64,000 nt of DNA, from positions 223,913 to 287,912 of the forward strand of contig MU270046.1 in the NCBI GenBank assembly GCA_021432635.1, in the 5' to 3' direction. This DNA is from Thozetella sp. PMI_491. Taxonomy: Eukaryota; Ascomycota; Sordariomycetes; Chaetosphaeriales; Chaetosphaeriaceae. A program made the position numbers and the translations under genes. This document shows, in pieces, positions 12,920 through 30,002 of this stretch (the first letter of the stretch is position 1; the number at the start of each line of letters is the position of its first letter). Below the pieces are notes generated by a model. That model was not told where the DNA came from. It saw only the letters and a program-made list of their open reading frames with translations, and did not search any database.

Positions 12920-14607
12920 GGCCAAACAGTGTCAGAGGAACGAACATACGGGTGAAATACCCTCTGTACCATGTAATTATTGCCATGTATTTGTTATTAG
13001 CACGAAAGGGCTTGGTGTATCATAGCAAATTCTTAGCAGTTTCGGTCACTCTCGTCACTTGCTCTAATACGATCTCTATCGCGAAAGTAAACGTTGGAAC
13101 TCTCACCAAAAGCTAGATTCAATTTGCGTGCCATGTATTTCGGGAAGACCCTCCTAGAAGCGCTTGGCTAGGCAAACACACGGCTCGGCCCCCAAGGATC
13201 GGCATTCCTCAGATCCTAGCAATCTCAGACGCAAAAGTTCAACTGGTCACTAAAAATACCGCTAGCATTGTCTCATGCTGGGTATAGATACGGGGCCTTA
13301 GGTTCCGAATTCACAACCATGTCTGTCAAAATGTTGGGCCTTGAGGTGTCGGACTTCGCTTTCGGCAGAATCCTCCACAGAGTACGCAGTGGCGGGCAAC
13401 TGGTGCCTCCTGCTTGCCCTAAACCGTTAGGCTAGTGCCGATCACCGGCTTAGTCTGCAGGGGCGCTGCCACGTACCCGGCTGCACAACCCGAGCATGGT
13501 AGCGAGCCAAGAGTTCATGGGGCAGTGTTCTATTCTGTAAGCAGGAACGAGGCGCTCCATCCCCGCTGCCGTTGCATCCTACCACTTTCGATATGGTGCT
13601 GTTGTCTCGGTTCCAGCTTCACAGAGGAGCCAAGTTGAAAACGGTACATGCAGCTGATGTGCGTGAGGATCAATATTGTCGGTAGAGCACTCAACACGGC
13701 ACAAAACAGGCCGCTTGTGAATTCATCGAGGTTGCTAAGCAGAGAGAATTGCCAGCAAGGGCAGGGCATGATGACACTGACCATGTCATCTATTGGTTAG
13801 ATCCCGTACGAGTAGTCTTCGTAGCCAAGGGGTTCTAGACTTGGCGTATTCGGTGAAGATCAGCAACCACGGTATATTTTACCATGAATGAATTGTGTGC
13901 TAAACGAATAAAACTTATCTCTCGTTATCCTGAAACCTGACTAGACAGGGAGTTTGATATTTATCATCAGTTCGTAGCCCCCCCGGCATCGGACGAGGGC
14001 CGGGGGGCGATGCTGCCCAGGAGTATCACAAACGCCCTCACCGTGTCTTTATGAGCGTCTACACGTCCGATGAGCAGGGGTTGGAAATTCACTCAGCCAG
14101 CACCGCGAACTATGCCATCCTTGTGCCTAGTAGGACTTGTGACATGCCCCTCTGGTACCCAGGGGGACTCTTGGAGCTGACAGGCTGTGAACCTTTATCC
14201 GCCTCTGTCGCAGACGAAACGACGCGATCAAGGGTCCCTCTACGCTAGCCCCAACAGTTCGCTGGTTCAATGTCAGTGCTCGAATCCATCACCAGTGAAC
14301 CCATCCCATCAGTCGGGACCTGTCAGACGATACCGAATCCACAGACCTGGGTCGATTGCCCAACACCGGCACGCTGGGCCGACATGAAGGCTGCAAAGGT
14401 GCCCATAATGGCCATAGCTTCTCTTGGCCCGGTGTCGCATGCAGCGAGTTCGGGACGGAACAGCTAGGTCTCTCCGCAACCAGAAAATGTATTAAATAGA
14501 GCCATGAGAGATCCCGTCTGGTGCGTAGGAGCGGCACCAGCTTCTTCCTCTGTTTTCAATCTACTTCATCAGTCTCTCCCTCATTCTTTGTCGTCCTTTT
14601 GTTTACC
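12920..14607. other. intergenic, no gene supported
   Basis: 1.7 kb between the rhodopsin-like gene and the P450. It contains a GC-rich potential hairpin at 13977-14013: a C7 run with GGC and GCATCG is matched downstream by GCCGGGGGGC and CGATGC. Open frames at about 13435-13784 and 14051-14537 have no recognisable product. A weak TATA-like TATTAAATA lies near 14489. Confidence 0.45.
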
Positions 14608-16571
14608 ATGCTTTCCTCCTCATTCGAGGACTTGTTCCTCGCCTATCGACTGCTACCGCAGCTCTTCAGCGGCAACATTGACTTTGTCAGCGTAGCCAGA
14701 TCGACAGGCACACTCGTTAGTTATGCTAAATGCGACCTGTCACTGCATGCTTTGTGCTCTAACCCCACCTTTTTGCAGGTTCTTGCCTATCTTGTCTACC
14801 TGTTGGTGTACCGTTACTTTTTCCATCCTCTGGCAGGGTTCCCGGGTCCCAAGCTCGCGCCATTTAGTAATGTAACCGCGCATATACTTTTCTCTGTGTT
14901 GGGTAGCAAACACCTGACCAATATTATAGGCACTATGGTACTGGACGTTGCTTAAAGGCAGGGCCCCGTGGGTCAATCACTCATGGCACAAAAAATACGG
15001 TATGATGGCTCAACTTGACTTGAGGGGTGCCTCGGAAGAGCTTACAATTGTATAACTAACTCATCGAAAGGCCCGGTGGTGCGAATCGGAGTGAACCATC
15101 TCAGTTTCTCCACCCATGCCGCCCAGAAAACCATCTATGGCTTCGGCACCAAAGAGGTTCCATCTTTCGCAAAAGATCCGGAGTTCTCTACTCCCGAGGT
15201 CGATGGCACCGTCAACATCATTGTCGAGATCGACAAGAAAGAGCACGCCCGCATGCGACGCATGCTAAGCCACGCCTTCACCAACACGAATCTGTTCACA
15301 CATCAAGATGTCATCACGCGGCGCACCGATGAGATGTTAGACAATATGCATGGCCTCCTGGAGGAAGAGGGGAAGAAAGGCATAAACTTTGTGAAATGGT
15401 CGTACTACGTCACATATGATATCATGGGTACGTTCCCTCGACTCGCATCGCGATTTTCTGCAAACTGACTGGATTCATTACCAGGGGAGATGTCCTTTGG
15501 CGACCTGTGGGAAATTCAGACAGCGAAGCAGCCAGAAGGAAAGTTCCACTGGGCAGATGTCATCACCGCTACAACCAATGTAAACGACATGCTCCGTGCC
15601 ATCTGCGTCATTCCAGGACTATTCAGTCTGGTGACCTGGTACATGCCAAAGGTCCTCCAAGACACCATCGTTCGCCATGCCGAATATGCACATGAATACA
15701 CGCAGGCGTACGTGTTTCCTACTAAAATATCCTGTGTTGTCACCATCCACCCTCTGTTTTGCTGACATTATCCAAGGCGACTCGCGATGAAGACCGATCG
15801 AAAAGACTTCCTATACCACATGCTCAATGACAAGAGCTCGCCTCGTCCCGCGGACAGCGAGCTCGCTTCACACTTCCAAGCTATGATGCTTGCCGGAAGT
15901 ATCACAACTGCTACGTTTCTTCCTGGGACGTTGTACTATTTATGCAAGGAGCCAGTTAAACGTGCCCGCCTCATCGATGAGATCCGCAGCAAGTTCCCCC
16001 GAGCAGAAGATATCAACGGCAGGACATTGGTGGAAGACTGCCCGTATCTCAACGCGGTGTGTGACGAAAGTCTGCGGATATACCCGCCTGCCGGTGCCGC
16101 ACATCTAACGAGGATCGTCCCCGATGGTGGATGCGATATAGCGGGTCATTGGGTCCCCGGAGGTGTAGGTTCATCCCCCGAAAATCCGCGACATCATAAT
16201 CCAACCTGGGTGGCGCTAACTCTCTGTTCCTGCAGACGCGCGTTTCCGTTCATCCTTGGTCTATACTCCGAGACGAGACCAACTTCACCGAGCCTGAAAA
16301 GTTCATTCCGGAGCGCTGGATGCACACGGAGCCGGAGGGTCAGCGGGGCGACAAGCTAGAGACCAACCTCCCCTTTTCGTCCGGCCCGAGAGGTTGCCTT
16401 GGAAAGAATTTGGCATACCTCGAGATGCGTATGATCCTCGCCAAGTTTTTCTGGCGATACGATGTCGACTGGTTTGACGCAAGTATCGACTGGGAGCGTG
16501 ACGGCATGGGATACACTGTATGGAAGAAGCCAGACTTCCGAGTCCTTCTAAAGGAGCGCGAAGATATTTGA
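14608..16571 (+). CDS. cytochrome P450 monooxygenase (Tri11-like class)
   Basis: Seven exons: 14608-14715, 14779-14871, 14930-14999, 15071-15427, 15485-15707, 15777-16164 and 16236-16571, giving 524 residues with all phases correct. The third exon (70 nt) supplies WHKKYG, joined to PVVRIG of the next exon. It has an N-terminal membrane anchor, the proline hinge FPGPK, the K-helix ESLR near 381 and the heme loop FSSGPRGCLG with Cys about 467. The I-helix reads AGSITTAT near 323-330, so the usual acidic residue before Thr-Thr is Ile. The family resembles isotrichodermin 15-hydroxylase-type enzymes that tailor secondary metabolites at the ER. It lies next to DUF3328 genes and may belong to the same pathway. 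It converges with the first UstYa-like gene. Confidence 0.92.
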
Positions 16572-16867: not shown

Positions 16868-17843
16868 TTAGTTCAAACTTGGCATCTCAATGGCATCAGG
16901 TGGCTTTCTAATGGTATGGGTGATAGGAGCCTCATTCTTACGTGCCCACTGTAAAACTTCTTCGGGGTCTCGACACTGGTGCCAAGTACTGAAGTCCGGC
17001 GTAGCGGCCGCTTTGCCTATCACCCAATGAAAGAGGACAAGACCTGTGTCGGCATTGCACATCAACACTTGGCGGAGTATCTCAATGCAGTGATCTATAA
17101 AACGACAGTCAGTGGAGCTCCGCTAGAGGCATGGGAGACTAAAGCTGACCAACATGGGCTCGCCAGTTCTTCGCTGTGCGCTGGTAGTGCTCGGGATATG
17201 TCGCGCGGCGCACCTCATCCTTCATCGCGTCAATAGAGTATTAACCACCTAGTCTTCCTAGTAAACGCGCGAAATGGGTTGGAAGTTAACTCACCAGACA
17301 ATGTAACTGATGGAACATCTCCAAAGTCGCCATATAGCTGCCCCCATTCGTCTCGTCCAACACAACCGTGGAGTTGAACCACTCATCGTCACTAGCCTTT
17401 CGCGACCGGCGGATGTCGTCTTCGGTCGCCGCCAGCAGCACAGCTCCGCCACTAAACCACGGACTCTCTGTGAAGCGCGCCCAAGCGTCATCGACGGCCT
17501 GGCTCGGAGGGCCTCGATATGGGCTGGATTCCAAGAGTCCGCCCTTGAAACGTGTCCATTCGAGGCTCCAGTCAATGTCGGGACGCCAGGACAGCTCATG
17601 GGGTATCCTCTGCGTCTCATATAGGCGGATATTGTTGGCCAAGGAAATGGCCATTCCGAAGATGAAAGACAGCAAAGAGGTGATAGCAATGCTCCCTAAG
17701 ATGGCCATTCGTTCGCGCCGGCTAGTCTTTTGTGGAGGGTCTGCAGGAGACGCAGTTTTGGCCGTGGGGGCTTCTTCCTGATGGACTGGCCCATAGCCCG
17801 GCTGCTTGAAAAGATAGGAGACTCCAGAAAGCAACGATTCCAT
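16868..17843 (-). CDS. UstYa-like oxidase (DUF3328), first copy
   Basis: Exons 17843-17295, 17219-17150 and 17094-16868 give 281 residues. A cytosolic N-terminus of about 45 residues is followed by one membrane segment (about 46-69) and a lumenal domain. Both family motifs are present: HQLHC at the end of exon 1 and HVDHC made by the exon 2-3 join, followed by LRQVLMCNADT and HQCRDPEEVLQWA. Exon 2 begins after an AAG acceptor, giving DEVRRATYPEHY, the usual spacing after the first motif. A nearer CTAG acceptor would bring an in-frame stop. UstYa-type proteins catalyse oxidative cyclisation or related steps in fungal peptide pathways, the HxxHC residues probably binding metal. Confidence 0.9.
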
Positions 17844-19439: not shown

Positions 19440-20527
19440 CTACTGTGGTGCTGGAGTAAGCCTCCCAGGGTCATACGGGGTCCAGTCGAGCTCGTCAGTG
19501 CCAAACGCTCTCCCCCACATGAGGATGGTGTAGTAGTTTCTGCACGTGTGTGCGGTTTCCATGCCGACCTGCCACCTCTGAAGTCTCTCATGCCATCGCC
19601 AATAGTTCACTCCCGTGTTGGCATGGCACATAGCGTTCTGCCGAATCCTGTCGATGCAGTGCACTGAAACATAGCATCATGCTTAGCCCAACGAAACTAG
19701 TCGTTCGAAGTTTAGAGAACTCACTTTGATGAGCCGTTACGACATCGTTGCGCGTTCCGTTCGGGAAAAACATTTCCCATTGTGGATATCGCTCCGGGAA
19801 TAGTCCCTGACGCAAGGAGTTGAGGCAGTGCAAGAGATGGAATACCTGCCTTGGTTAGCAATGGAGTGCCAGCTTTTGGCATGAATGCTGCGCTATACCT
19901 CTAGAGTGATCATGCCATCACCCTCTGTGCCGGGGTAGATCAATGTCTGGTTTGGAAGCTTGCTGACGTCTTTCGCTGGGACAGGTATGTACGTGGTGCC
20001 TTGGTGCGTGTTTGCAGTCAGACTTATTATCCTACCCAGATATAGTCACTGGTATTATCGTCTCACCGCTGTAGAGGTCTTTCCAGAGTTCATCAACATG
20101 ATCATCCGGAGGCATCTGGTAGGGCGAGAAGTGATCAAGGCCGTCGTAGAAAACCACATCTTCGTACTCAACAGCAACATTACCGGGTGCTAATTTGACG
20201 GAAGAGTATCAGCTAAAGCGTCCGTGTGAACTTACCAAGGGCATTCAATAGGCATTCAGCTATAGTGAGGGAATAAGACTTACACCAGGTGCGCAATGTT
20301 GGGTCCACAAATTGGTCCACAACTTTGATGTGCGTCACAGACCAAGCCAAACCAGCGAGCAGCCCAACAATGATCAAGAAATTCGCGAGGAGAAGACGCT
20401 TCAGCCACTTGATGGCTTGTCTTAACTTCTCTTCTTTCCGAGCGAACTCGGCCTGCCCTTTTTCAATCTCGAAAGACCTGTCGTCTTGGAGGAAGCCCTG
20501 CTGCTCATCAAGTAGTTCGTTGTCCAT
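19440..20527 (-). CDS. UstYa-like oxidase (DUF3328), second copy
   Basis: Five exons: 20527-20284, 20189-20067, 19999-19899, 19845-19725 and 19663-19440, giving 270 residues. The N-terminal cytosolic part (MDNELLDEQQ...) is charged and helical, followed by one membrane segment near LLLANFLIIVGLLAGLAW. The lumenal domain has WSPGNVAVEYEDV at the first splice, LDHFSPYQMPPDD, the first motif HLLHC after FPNQ-type linkers, and the second, HQMHC, created at the exon 4-5 junction, then IRQNAMCHANTG. Family members are type II membrane proteins acting on peptide or cyclic intermediates. It shows only family-level likeness to the other two copies here, so they are not recent duplicates. Same strand as the first copy, divergent from the precursor-like gene. 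Confidence 0.9.
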
Positions 20528-21097: not shown

Positions 21098-21105
21098 TAT
21101 AAAAG
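21098..21105 (+). promoter_or_regulatory. TATA box of the precursor-like gene
   Basis: TATAAAAG, 165 nt before the ATG at 21270, followed by a pyrimidine-rich stretch (CTTCTCTTTCACGC) typical of transcription starts in highly expressed fungal genes. Confidence 0.5.
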
Positions 21106-21182
21106 GGATATCGAGACCATATCACAATCCTTCTCTTTCACGCTATCTACTCGCTCAACTCCTTCAAGCAGCTCAAGTTTTT

Positions 21183-21199
21183 ACCGCCCAAAACCAGGC
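21183..21199 (+). promoter_or_regulatory. leader motif shared with the Cys-rich peptide gene
   Basis: ACCGCCCAAAACCAGGC, 71 nt before the ATG. It matches 16 of 17 bases at 25551-25567. TCAAGTTTTT directly precedes it; a TCAAGTTTT also lies in the leader of the second gene. It could be a regulator site or common ancestry of the leaders. Confidence 0.45.
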
Positions 21200-21269
21200 C
21201 AGCTTTTGAAGGCTCAGAGTCGTTATACGAAGTTCTTAGATTCTCATATATCCCCAGACTCTCCTCACA

Positions 21270-21751
21270 ATGAAGATCACAGCCATTGAAGCCATCCTCA
21301 CAGTGGTTCTGGCCGCATATCCGACCACCGTTGCTGCGTTCCCGCCTCCATCACTGGTAGGTGACCCTCTCCCTTCGTTCTCAACCACCATCGCCGATCA
21401 GGCGTTCATGAAAATCCTCGAATGAAAAAGGTCATTGAACCGTATTATTACCGCCGATTTGGCCGTGTCACATACGAGCAGCGGCGCACCTCATATCTTA
21501 ACAATGTCCGTTGCTGACCTCGTCTGCCTTTATTCCTTCATGTGACACTTTACCACCTGTCCGAGACTATTAACAACTGACCTTATCTTTCCATGTAGGG
21601 CAATGTGGCCGCCCGGGCTCCGGCAGATGATGCTCTTCCCAAGGCTATCCCTGAGAACGCTGATCCAACGCTTCAGTGGTGGCATCCGGATTACTGGGAC
21701 CGTTCCGTGCACAAAGATGCCCGGGCTCCTGAGCAAATTGAGGCTGTCTAG
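21270..21751 (+). CDS. small secreted peptide, candidate RiPP precursor with a WWHPDYW core
   Basis: Exons 21270-21356 and 21599-21751 (intron 242 nt, GTAGGT...CTGAC...TGTAG) give 79 residues. Residues 1-23 form a clear signal peptide (MKITAIEAILTVVLAA... cleaved after TTVAA). The mature part is acidic and Pro/Ala-rich and carries one aromatic cluster, LQWWHPDYWDRS, bracketed by two ARAP tetrapeptides (in VAARAPADD and KDARAPEQ). Signal peptide, spacer and Trp/Tyr/His-rich segment beside three UstYa-like genes match the logic of dikaritin-type precursors. Against this, those precursors usually carry several KR-flanked repeats, absent here. Reading through the intron would give a 51-residue variant. 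It could instead be a plain secreted effector. Confidence 0.7.
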
Positions 21752-23322
21752 GCTCCCCTCAAACGCGGATCCCAACCCACCTTGGAGCCATGGCTGTAAA
21801 TCTAGCGAGTTCTTTCAGAGGCAGAAAGACTCGCTCCAAGACATTATGGGGGCCGCGGGAAAGGACGGGAGAGTAGATAGTGCATCTCTACGCGTGGGCA
21901 GGTGGCCATCTCAAATGACCAGTTGAGCGTGTTCTTAGCTTTCGCAGCCTCTAGGATGCGAAGAGAGTCTTCCTTTAGCAGTCGCTTGCTTGTAACCCCT
22001 TCGAAGGCGCCTCGAAGTGTGGATATACCACCACTCCTTTACTACAAATCTAAACATAGTTTTGCGCAAAGACGCTGAATAATGTGACATCCGTTTATTT
22101 ACACGCACCCGATAAAGTACCCAAGAAGGGTTCAATCCTTACCCCTTTACGTACAAGAAGTTAACTGATGTGCATGTGCGGTGCAAGTCGGGGTTATGAA
22201 CTCACCCTGTCGGCTCAGCTAGCTCCTTGGGGTTGAGAAAAGTAAGCAAGATTCTGTCTACTTGAAATTCCTTGGACCCATTGTTAGAACGAGTCCTATT
22301 CTTCAGCTCGCTAGACTTGGACATATTTAGCATTAATGGTCGCAAAGGGAAGGTGATCACTAACTACAGTCGGGGTAGAGATAAGGCAACACAATGTGTC
22401 AAGAGTACAACAAGTTATTTACGGGCCAATGTATGCTGCAAGCATCTGCATGCTTTGAAGGAGTTCACACCGAAAACATGGCTTGGTTTGGATCGGCATA
22501 TCTTGTCGAAGGAGATGCACCCAATCCAATGCACCTCGTATGTACCGCTTTCAAATCTGGCCGACGACCCTAGCAAGTGGAGTGCACACCAGTATGATAC
22601 GTGCATACGCTGTGCAACTCTACGACCCTATCAAGCTGAAAGCCGAGCTCAAGGGAAACTAAGTTACCCCAAAAGAATGAAGCTCAATTCTAATGGTGCA
22701 TCCTTTATCCGTTACACTAGCAAACTGCATTAAGCAGGATACTTCGGACTATTGGGATGCTAGCCCTTGCATCATTCGTTCCGCCTCCATTGGGCGTTGC
22801 CACCGCAGCGTATCAATGCAAACTCGCTATTCCTCCAATCTCGTGCGTCTCCTGTGCCGATATCCGCCGGGAAAAGGACAAGTCGCGATAAAGAACCGAA
22901 GGAGCACAACAGTTTCCCGTGTCGCAAGCCTCACTGAGCCGATGAAGAATACATGTTAACAATGACATCTTCAGAAGTATATTGTCTAACCGTACTAGGA
23001 AATATAGCGGAACCAGGAAATCGCCGAAACAGAAGCCATCGGGGGCGATCGATAGATGTCCACTGAGGCAGTCACCCCATATCCTTGCAAGTATTCGTGA
23101 GTCATGGTTTACCCTCGATAGTAATTCCCGCGGGAACTTCAATGAAGCTCTCCTCCTCCTTACACGAGGCTAGGACATATGTAATAGATGAACAGTGGTG
23201 CAGAAGAAACAGTCAGCCCTCGAGTCTCGCGGGCACACATTTCTTATTCTATCACAACAAATTCTTGGTCCCTAATCTCTCTCCAATTGCTTTCATTTTC
23301 TAGCTTTAATATCAAGCTGAAC
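21752..23322. other. intergenic, no gene supported
   Basis: 1.57 kb between the precursor-like gene and the third UstYa-like gene. A 153-codon open frame at 22272-22733 and others around 22813-23142 show no family motif, signal peptide or splice partner. Confidence 0.4.
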
Positions 23323-24198
23323 ATGGATGAGCCGAAATTCCATCGCCTACAATCAGATGACAACAGCGATGACGATCAAACCATAACTTCATACTTTCCC
23401 CTTCCCGCTAGACCAATATCTACACATTGGCACAGGCTATTTCGATATGCTCCTTCGATGACCTTTCTCCTCGCATATTGCGTACTCTCCACTACTTCGA
23501 TAGTCGCCTTGACAGCCGCGGTTCTTTACAAGCTGGGTACGGGTGACGATCTAATCCGGCACGACTGCCGGAATGGACGATATTTCGAAGGTGTATTTGG
23601 CGGAGATGAAATCTACATGTCCGTAGATCACAAGTTCGATAATCTCTGGGAGAATCTCGGAGGCAAAGCTTTGATTATCCAACTCCCGGACGAAAGCTAC
23701 GATGGACAGGCTACTCCTGCTTCTATTTCCATGTGAGCGACTCTCTTGTAGCAAGCCACTGGCAATTGGGCACTCCCTGACATGACCTCAGGTTTCATCA
23801 GCTTCACTGCCTCTCTTCACTACGACACGCGATCCAACAAGCTCGCGAAGGGCATGATCCGGGGATAGATGCCTATGATGACCCTCATTGGCCTCATTGC
23901 ATGGATTATCTTCGAAAGGTACGCTTATAGATTGCTTGTGTTGCTGCCAGTCGTGCTGCTTCCCTAATTCATCGTGCCCGTCCCGGTCGATCACCCTCGT
24001 ACCATCGCTCTAACTCAATCAAAGACAATTCTATGTTGGGCTGACGATACTATTGAACGACGTAATATATTTCCAAACGGTACGGTTTCGTCGGTTATTG
24101 ACGGTTCACACGATCTGAGGCAATGTGGCGACAACCGGCGCCTCATCCGACTGATGCGTGATCACGGGAAGGATATCTCCACTCAACCCTTCCCCTAA
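23323..24198 (+). CDS. UstYa-like oxidase (DUF3328), third copy
   Basis: Exons 23323-23732, 23792-23918 and 24025-24198 give 236 residues. An acidic cytosolic N-terminus (SDDNSDDDQT) precedes one membrane segment (FLLAYCVLSTTSIVALTAAV). The lumenal domain carries FHQLHC, completed at the first splice, and HWPHC 34 residues later, then LRKTILCWADDTIE and QCGDNRRLIRLM. Both HxxHC motifs are therefore intact. The stretch between the membrane segment and the first motif is shorter than in the other copies. It is transcribed away from the precursor-like gene and probably acts in the same ER/Golgi pathway. Confidence 0.9.
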
Positions 24199-27231: not shown

Positions 27232-30002
27232 ATGGATGCGCCATCGCCTGACGGCGATCACGAAAGCAGCCACCCAACAGCGTCCTCAAGAAAAGGTACG
27301 TCTACCCCTGTGCCCTTCTCTAGTTGAGCACTCGACGTGAAGGTCAGCTGCTGAAGCACAGTGCCCTGCTCCTTGCACAGGTTGCCTGGTCTGCAGATCT
27401 AGAAAGGTGAGTATGCTGGTTGCCGGCTACGCCAGATCTTCAGCGGCCCAATCTGACGGCTTCTCATCCTAGATAAAATGTGATCAGAGTCAGCCACGAT
27501 GCCGCGCCTGCGTCCGGTTGGGTGTTCACTGTCCCGGATATGGCTCCGGCGCGATTTCAGACAGTGCTGGTGGTTCGGAATCGGCCATCGATGACATCTT
27601 CAAGGCCTCCGGGGTCGAGAAAAGGAAGATAGGATCATGTGAGGCGTGTAGGAGATCAAAAATTGCATGCTCGAAGCACCGACCGACGTGTCGCCGCTGC
27701 TCTAAGCGCCATATCGACTGCATTTATCCTGGTAGGCGCAAGGCGGCTGGCGGAGAAGGCCAAAGTGAACCTCAGCCGTCGCGATTGGAGAGTTCCGTGG
27801 AAGCGACTTCCGACGTTGGCCGGGGACTATCGACGCCAGCAGCGAATTCTAACCTAGACATGAGCGTTCAATGGTCTGTCGTGATGCGTGTTTTACTGTT
27901 GATCACCCTTTGGGCGATGCACAGGCTAACTCAATGCGAGGTAGGCTTTACTGTGAAACTCTTCCCGAGGATCCCAGCATGACTCGGAAGTTGATTGAGG
28001 CCTATTTCACTCACATTCATCCCTTGAGATGCCTGGGCTTTATTCACAAACCAGCCTTTATGCAGTCTCTTGATCGAGGCAACGTGGTTAAAGAATATGG
28101 GGAGGCACTGGTCTATATCATGTGTGCATTTGGGGCGAGGTATGTTACCGGTATCAGCTTGCGTCGAATAGTATGTCCTCTCTAATGACATCAGATGCTT
28201 GTGTGCAGATGGGCAGTTGCCTTCGGGTCGCTCCGGTCCCGACACGCCCGGCCAGAAGTGGGCCGAGAAAGCAGCCGAGCTGGTCCTCCAAGGCATGTGG
28301 ACGCCCTCAGCTCTGAATCTGATGGTATAATCCTGTCTCCTAAAACTCCTTTGTCTATGGACTGATTTGATGCGCAGGCGATGTTGTTATTCTGTGAATA
28401 TGGCGTTGGGACAGATCATCTCCACGCAATGGTCTTTCAACTTCTCGGCTGTTGTCATCGGTTAACCCGCCTTCTAATGCTTGAGCAACGGACTACTCGA
28501 CCAGGGCACTCTAGCCCCGAGGAAACATCCCAGATGGAATCCTTGAGGCGGCTCTTTTGGTCTTGTTACATTCTCGATACCATCGTCGGTGCAGGAGTAG
28601 AAGGGAACGCTTCGTGGAGGGAATGGCCCCAGGTCCCGCTGCCGGCATCAGAGAGTGATTTCATATCACAAATATCCCCAAGTGCGCTATTTTTGCCATC
28701 AAACGAGAGATTTAGTGATCCCAAGACTCTTGAGGAAATGAGTATCCAGGCCCATGCCGTGTACATCGTAACTCTTCGGTCTCGAGTGCTTCGGTAGGCA
28801 CCTCCGCTCTCTGTCAGTCAAACCGTCACCTGGTCTAACATGATTTTGGTTACAGACTTATTAGGCAAAGCAGCCTGGAAGGAAGCATCAATGACCCGGA
28901 TTCGCTTTTCCTTCAACTGGTTCGTACCCTCGACCTTTGGTATGAGCAGCTCCCCGAACGATTCTCGTTGAGCCCACTCAAGATCTACATTCATAAAGAC
29001 CAGAACACCCTTGGAGCTATCTTTTATCTCCATCTGGCGTATCATGGAGCGATTGCCGACCTAACTAGGGTGTCTCTCCCGGGTTTTTCCTTCCCCATGG
29101 CCTCAGCATTCCGGGATGCCCCGCAAGACTTCCAAAGCTGGTGCCAGCAACGCTGCAGGTATCACTCAGACAAAGTTTCGGAATGCATTCAAATGGGTCT
29201 TCCGCACGGCGCTCAGCCATTTCACGATCCATTTTGCCATATCGCTGCCTTCGAGGCAAGCAAAGTGCAGATTATCCACACGGTAATTGCGACAAGCAAT
29301 AGCCTAGATGAACGGAGGAAAGCGGGCAGCAGCATAAGGGCGAATATTAAGCTCATGGAAATGAGAAGTTCTGATGTCTCGGGGATACATGTAAGTCACC
29401 TACTCGAGACGCGCTCGGTGAGAACCGAGGCTAACTATTATTTCAAGCGCCGGACAATCTTACCTTTGCTCAGACGATTTGGTTTTCATGATATCGTAGA
29501 CGAATGGAAAGAGCACACAACAGATGGGTAAGTCCACATGGCCGCTTTGGTTATATTCTCTATTCTAACGTGAAGTAGTCTCGGAGAAGAAGACGATGCT
29601 GCCGACATAACAGGCCCCGCTGATGCTGCTTACTTGACAAGTCTAAGCACTTTTCGTCGCGCTCAGGCCAAGATACTACCTAGCAATATCGCAACCAGTC
29701 CTTATAGCTGGTCGGCTGCAGGCGAAAGTAGTCCTAGGGAGACTGTCAGGCGAGGAGAACAAAGAGGACTGTTCAACAGTTTCAATCCGGCAGAAGAACA
29801 TCATCCGGGAGAAGGTTCTATGCAATTATCCCAACCGGTGGAGGGATCTTCGACAGAGACCACCGAGATGCTTTTCCCAACTGTTGAGTCCATGGAGCCA
29901 GGACTGTCGTCCGAAGAATTCGGCCGCCTTGCGCACGAATGGTCCGATTATCTCACCTGGGACTTCAATTGGTGGCAGGATTTCAACGGAGACGGCTTTT
30001 GA
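27232..30002 (+). CDS. transcription factor with two tandem Zn2Cys6 clusters and fungal TF domain
   Basis: Nine exons: 27232-27295, 27357-27406, 27473-27873, 27945-28139, 28195-28324, 28378-28793, 28856-29390, 29448-29527 and 29579-30002, giving 764 residues, all phases consistent. Two full zinc clusters follow each other: CLVCRSRKIKC...CRAC...C (31-58) and CEACRRSKIAC...CRRC...C (94-121), each C-x2-C-x6-C-x6-C-x2-C-x6-C, about 35 residues apart. The regulatory domain starts at LIEAYFTHIHPL and includes LRRLFWSCYILDTIV and the SLQLVRTLDLWYEQLP helix region. The C-terminal 140 residues are acidic and Ser/Pro-rich, a likely activation region. One intron, 29391-29447, is a multiple of three and open, so its removal is inferred from GTAAGT, GCTAAC and AAG. 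Its place at the edge of the DUF3328 block suggests a pathway regulator. Confidence 0.88.

Follow-up and report, generated by a model that had tools for sequence, protein, structure and literature searches.

The most likely reading of the small gene at positions 21270 to 21751 of the window, the stretch of 64,000 nucleotides that we analysed from contig C32 of the 72-Mb assembly of Thozetella sp. PMI_491 (Chaetosphaeriales), is that it encodes a dikaritin-like precursor that has diverged, has one core and contains a conserved leader-like exon. We consider it probable that its product is a ribosomal UstYa-modified peptide precursor and the diverged third member of a small precursor family, represented in this genome at C32, C67 and C77, that accompanies a pair of UstYa genes, here named A and B.

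The precursor gene and its neighbours

The features of the precursor gene, excluding a proposed middle exon that is described below, are as follows.

21098..21105, forward strand: TATA-type box TATAAAAG upstream of the precursor, read by eye from the sequence
21270..21356, forward strand: precursor exon 1, signal-peptide-like, MKITAIEAILTVVLAAYPTTVAAFPPPSL, part of GQ53DRAFT_825743
21599..21751, forward strand: last exon of the precursor, GNVAARAPADDALPKAIPENADPTLQWWHPDYWDRSVHKDARAPEQIEAV, in GQ53DRAFT_825743
21611..21622, forward strand: first ARAP, read from the sequence
21677..21697, forward strand: aromatic core WWHPDYW, read from the sequence, followed by DR where most C67 and C77 cores have RR
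21719..21730, forward strand: second ARAP, read from the sequence

Translation of the joined exons 21270-21356 and 21599-21751 gives a 79-aa protein, as predicted by a first-pass annotation made from the sequence alone, and this matches GQ53DRAFT_825743 (Thozetella sp. PMI_491) in the protein database at 100% over its whole length. The splice of the record is taken to be the modelled one, for this gene and for UstYa B, because the proteins are identical; it was read from the protein and not from exon coordinates. The hydrophobic N-terminus, the two ARAP tetrapeptides and the WWHPDYW segment were all present in this product as described. The proposed signal peptide held up in part, being listed by the looser of two crude signal-peptide scans and missed by the stricter one. 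The start context, by eye, is CACAATG. A search of 5.8 billion proteins, which relied on shared 5-residue words, returned the 79-aa protein itself as the sole candidate. Three weak genome matches besides the window (E 0.016-0.22) were considered as whole-protein paralogues and judged to be noise: two of them (L011 and L012) had neither a signal peptide nor a core around the match, and the third (L013) lay inside a long frame of another kind.

The genes around the precursor are arranged in the order P450 (forward), UstYa A and UstYa B (both reverse), precursor (forward), UstYa C (forward) and Zn2Cys6 regulator.

14500..16571, forward strand: cytochrome P450, with Pfam matches at 16200-16568 (E 8.7e-21) and 15019-15465 (E 5.9e-4, below the cut-off)
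16868..17843, reverse strand: UstYa A, predicted model of 3 exons, 281 aa, HQLHC and HVDHC, PF11807 E 4.5e-50
19440..20527, reverse strand: UstYa B, 5 exons, 270 aa, HLLHC and HQMHC, PF11807 E 4.6e-39
23323..24198, forward strand: UstYa C, predicted model of 3 exons, 236 aa, HQLHC and HWPHC, PF11807 E 1.7e-16
27473..30002, forward strand: Zn2Cys6 regulator region, its extent taken from adjoining open frames, PF00172 E 4.8e-12 on 27473-27979

The precursor had been placed near UstYa (DUF3328) genes, and this was confirmed by the three genes with PF11807 that surround it, the nearest 0.74 kb away. Each of the three models contains two HxxHC motifs, and the protein of the five-exon UstYa B model is identical to GQ53DRAFT_825742. 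In the sections of the literature consulted, DUF3328/UstY enzymes are described as linking side chains via a dicopper site (PMC12186524). Pfam scans of ten proteins or fragments from the window brought up no tyrosinase or methyltransferase family. No Pfam family matched 28839-29528 of the regulator region, and the regulator is possibly part of the cluster, judging by its proximity.

Beyond this genome, UstYa C has six relatives that match the whole query at 51-60% identity and come from Xylaria, Durotheca, Stachybotrys and Rhypophila; for UstYa B only two proteins were found outside the Thozetella sp. PMI_491 genome, both at 33%. Set side by side, these relatives raise the possibility that the cluster has a mixed origin.

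A conserved segment within the supposed intron

Among the best 9 of 44 rows for the fetched loci, the best-scoring relatives of UstYa A were those of C67 (46% and 73%) and C77 (45% and 67%), followed by L005 at 33%. The highest genome identities of UstYa B, exon by exon, were likewise at C67 (46-61%) and C77 (42-60%); single matches at C7, C18 and C28 (32-34%) had better E-values than the split C67 and C77 exons because those matching stretches are longer. The best non-self protein on record for UstYa B is the C77 relative, at 48% over 66%. No match to the window P450 was seen at E 1e-3 in the fetched C67 and C77 pieces.

Both C67 and C77 harbour a repeat-type precursor about 1.6-1.8 kb from the UstYa B relative. 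The predicted three-exon models encode a signal peptide, a segment of the form AYYYRxNGxVxFxxGQVxY and then cores ending in YWR, and their introns are all of phase 0 and 61-89 nt long. The predicted C77 precursor reads MGATLRSIALLGLAACSIVCAAPVDSAV / ADGPVVDKAYYYRRNGRVVFRQGQVTY / six cores HVDVLFGPAHYWR, and that of C67 reads MSLTLRSVLLVALAAVSAIAAPTAAPR / DDGSVAREAYYYRQNGKVTFQHGQVSY / seven cores VDAAFG[AS]PKYWR.

The intron implied by the two-exon model of the window precursor (21357-21598) is 242 nt long, exceeding those of the C67 and C77 models, and it contains a segment that resembles their second exon.

21431..21505, forward strand: proposed middle exon, unannotated, 75 nt, phase 0, VIEPYYYRRFGRVTYEQRRTSYLNN, by similarity to C67/C77 exon 2

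This segment is open, is preceded by AAG and followed by GTCCGT, a weak donor, with AG and GT at its ends; the introns on either side would be 74 and 93 nt. In a six-frame search of the window with a profile built from exon 2 of C77 and C67 only, it was the top-ranked segment, with 18.9 bits and an E-value of 1.2e-4. The runner-up had an E-value of 0.23, and 20 shuffled windows, in which dinucleotides were kept within 2-kb blocks, gave at most 9.6 bits. Pairwise scores of 59 with C77 and 60 with C67 were each reached by 0 of 5000 shuffles, and the DNA-level score against C77 was 12, against a maximum of 11 among 200 shuffles. The two flanking introns scored 7 and 6 against C77, as shuffled sequence does. 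The fourfold-degenerate sites of UstYa A and its C77 relative were identical at 13 of 40 positions, which is near saturation; this comparison and that of the introns are based upon C77 alone. At such a distance neutral sequence should be unrecognizable, and the similarity of the middle segment therefore argues for long selection. Taken together, this is good evidence that 21431-21505 encoded protein through most of its past. The YYYR middle exon, a feature of the C67/C77 precursor family, has a match in the window sequence.

The first-pass annotation had proposed a two-exon gene of a separate and unusual precursor class. Its exons and protein stand, and the plain intron between them does not, as it holds a coding-like segment of 75 nt; that segment matches the repeat precursors of C67 and C77, so that placing the gene in their small family, as a member that has diverged, is preferable to a class of its own. 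The C77 middle exon, used as a single-sequence genome query, returned two candidates, C77 and C67, with the window absent, and the middle-exon profile reached at best an E-value of 1.1 across the other fetched loci.

The 79-aa form may instead be the sole real product, the middle segment being a dead exon that lost its donor and the gene, with its two exons, encoding a precursor that has one core and is cleaved at single Arg residues. The recorded protein GQ53DRAFT_825743 has that form and skips the segment, and the donor at the family position TAT|GT, which is GTGACT or GTAACT in the C67 and C77 models, is changed in the window, where the segment is followed by GTCCGT. Third-position bias is also weaker in the segment: over 20 codons, differences by codon position were 9/6/12 to C77 and 8/7/12 to C67, compared with 3/5/15 between the C67 and C77 exons, and constraint on the segment may be relaxed. 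The sections of a Kex2 study consulted report that the protease tolerates other P2 residues and prefers an aliphatic P4 (PMC8528282), which fits cleavage at VAAR|AP. Against this, the segment is still recognizable (E 1.2e-4) despite near saturation of the UstYa A pair at fourfold-degenerate positions, and it has remained open, in phase 0 and bounded by AG and GT. We regard this alternative as unlikely.

A second alternative, that the gene product is small, secreted and has nothing to do with the UstYa enzymes, being effector-like or pheromone-like and there by chance, is suggested by the signal-peptide-like start, the short Pro/Ala-rich mature part, the Trp-rich peptide and some X-A/X-P dipeptides in the spacer, among those listed. 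It is difficult to reconcile with UstYa genes on both sides, with a middle segment common to precursors beside UstYa A/B relatives and with the KR-repeat alpha-pheromone gene that already exists on C21, and in the portion of one survey consulted, pheromone-type repeat genes almost never adjoin DUF3328 genes (PMC7329392). We consider it very improbable. These and the other rival readings overlap, and the likelihoods attached to them are not meant to sum to one.

Fungal alpha-pheromone precursors carry WC..GQ.CW-type repeats with KR. Such a gene is present on C21 (L038/L039), where WCQIRGQSCW occurs at least four times along with KR sites, and alpha-pheromone identity was rejected for the 79-aa protein, from which these repeats are absent.

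The aromatic core and its putative cleavage sites

An aromatic scan of 468,647 translated residues (16 rows from 13 sources, with L038 and L039 overlapping) found WWHPDYW once. The claim of a single aromatic core without repeats was upheld, as no direct repeat family was found in 21100-23400 and no window frame passed the repeat-plus-dibasic filter. All W and Y residues of exon 3, as the last exon is numbered when the middle exon is counted, fall within 7 residues, a clustering that 0.4% of composition shuffles also showed. The ARAP pair in its exact form arose in 4.5e-5 of composition shuffles, and some repeated 4-mer in 2.9%; at that latter frequency the ARAP bracket is weak as a processing signature and was set aside.

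The core was also compared with those of the relatives. In a three-sequence MAFFT alignment YWDR was aligned with YWRR, and the residues invariant in the last exon were E, D, Y, W and R. The pattern P-x(1,2)-YW-x-R is present in the window core and in 0.1% of composition shuffles, the pattern having been chosen after it was seen. In tests with 5000 shuffles each, 2091 scored at least as high as the core alignment with C77 and 166 at least as high as that with C67. The six best window matches to a core profile exclude WWHPDYW, and the C77 cores, used as a genome query, returned C77 and C67 only and not the window core. Homology to the relatives' cores is thus plausible from position and, apart from the weak C67 alignment, not significant by profile, genome search or shuffles. 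The first-pass annotation had named stronger conservation of the aromatic segment than of its flanks as a test; such conservation was not supported, the significant similarity lying in the supposed intron.

There are no Kex2 dibasic sites around the core in exon 3. VAAR|AP fits the Kex2 preference (aliphatic P4, variable P2), and YWDR and KDAR fit it less well. The 79-aa form is devoid of KR, RR and KK, in keeping with the earlier remark that KR is absent; with the middle exon included, the precursor would be 104 aa long and would have two RR sites, both in that exon. Cleavage at single Arg residues alone, as first proposed, is therefore doubtful.

The single core, against six to seven in the relatives, the DR that replaces RR and the changed donor could also be signs of decay, the gene being a former repeat precursor from which the repeats and dibasic sites have gone and which has ceased to yield a product. 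Its open frame, a TATA box and start context that are present (by eye), three open UstYa gene models and the concentration of aromatic residues in the core speak against such decay, and we find this reading improbable.

Proposed pathway, other precursors and known systems

In the preferred reading, that of a diverged family member, the ancestral form would have been as in C67 and C77, with a signal-peptide exon, a single-copy AYYYRxNG exon and a repeated-core exon ending in PKYWR or PAHYWR. The window member would have one core, WWHPDYWDR, and would have retained the middle exon, although it is missing from the annotated protein. The precursor would enter the secretory pathway, where the conserved YYYR segment may serve as a leader or recognition element for UstYa A and B, and these enzymes would join aromatic side chains of the core by oxidation. 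Further modification may come from UstYa C and perhaps from the P450, and Kex2-type cleavage (at RR in the middle exon, at VAAR|AP and possibly at other Arg sites) together with trimming would release the product. The gene, its neighbours and the resemblance of the middle segment to the C67 and C77 precursors are established; we infer the use of the middle exon in the mRNA, the leader role, the cross-linking, the processing and the product. A leader role is suggested because the middle segment is conserved and the cores vary, the pattern expected of a leader. A bolder version, which we hold to be speculative and unlikely as a whole, is that UstYa enzymes recognize a separate, exon-encoded, single-copy leader (YYYRxxGxVxF/Y) and not motifs that recur with each core, letting the core shrink to the one new aromatic sequence WWHPDYW, and that inclusion or skipping of the phase-0 75-nt exon could turn modification on or off within a single gene.

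The genome contains a large UstYa set, with at least 149 exon-level matches to PF11807 (150 of 203 candidates scored) grouped into about 91 places. Thirteen of the planned stretches among these 91 groups were covered whole and half of a 14th, followed by parts of C36, C30, C8, C77, C67 and C20; short pieces around eight matches were also taken, and the repeat precursors found are examples and not a survey. The following frames near other UstYa genes, with repeats and dibasic sites, resemble repeat-type precursors.

L024:3159-3704, reverse strand: repeat-type frame, units DYIKEGKR
L023:2491-3282, forward strand: repeat-type frame, units KRWSDDFGAADGPASGYGQDK
L025:6791-7543, forward strand: repeat-type frame, units SVNTPGDRTGIYWGKVDSEKR
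L033:3435-3635, reverse strand: repeat-type frame, units FGGHKNGYEGESKR

The contrast that had been drawn between the window gene and multi-core precursors is supported by these frames and by the literature. At C20 (L046:7100-8150, reverse strand), a precursor beside a UstYa C relative seems to be made up of several short exons, every one of which carries a unit similar to GYATGPNEDAVGKR; with its GYATGPNEDAVGKR units it differs from the window precursor, and the YATG of the units is reminiscent of the YAIG of ustiloxin. A 2142-aa open frame (L041:1576-8001, reverse strand), which reaches the end of the fetched piece, was observed near the C77 cluster.

Because the search for UstYa peptides depends largely on repeats and Kex2 sites, it can overlook precursors with one core as well as short internal exons. 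The window locus and its two repeat-bearing relatives in the same genome offer a concrete test of leader use by UstYa enzymes, and the C32, C67 and C77 set also tests how a repeat precursor becomes a single-core one. The three precursors have in common the middle exon, the exon phases, the partner UstYa A and B and a YW near the end of the core. The C67 and C77 precursors, unlike that of the window, carry repeats and dibasic sites, and their cores are not significantly similar to WWHPDYW.

Precursors of dikaritins are described, in the portions of the literature consulted, as starting with a signal peptide and carrying several cores set apart by Kex2 sites (PMC7329392, PMC10512285, PMC9233826, PMC12048977), and the corresponding portion of a Venturia study took repeats as a hallmark (PMC9632046). 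The repeats of DUF3328-linked precursors are reported, in the sections available, to be enriched in Tyr (65.6% vs 38.2%), which we counted for the reading as a UstYa precursor, and not in Trp (20.5% vs 24.5%), which we counted against it (PMC7329392). No single-core UstYa precursor or YYYR-like exon was described in the excerpts of open-licence literature examined. Lichen UstYa clusters without repeated cores resemble the window in having UstYa genes without a repeat precursor; in the sections seen, their authors named no single-core precursor and could go no further than suggesting that there might be just one core peptide (PMC12048977). A putative Trichoderma RiPP precursor (PMC7099791) is also fungal and has one predicted core, there after a single basic pair. 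Unlike the window gene, it was predicted by software and adjoins a sulfatase gene, with no UstYa partner mentioned in the part of the report consulted (PMC7099791). The window precursor resembles the dikaritins (ustiloxin, phomopsin and asperipin-2a, and their relatives victorin and epichloecyclin) in its signal-peptide-like start, its small size beside UstYa/DUF3328 genes and its aromatic core, and differs from them in having one core, no KR or RR around it, a Trp-rich composition of that core and a separate conserved YYYR segment.
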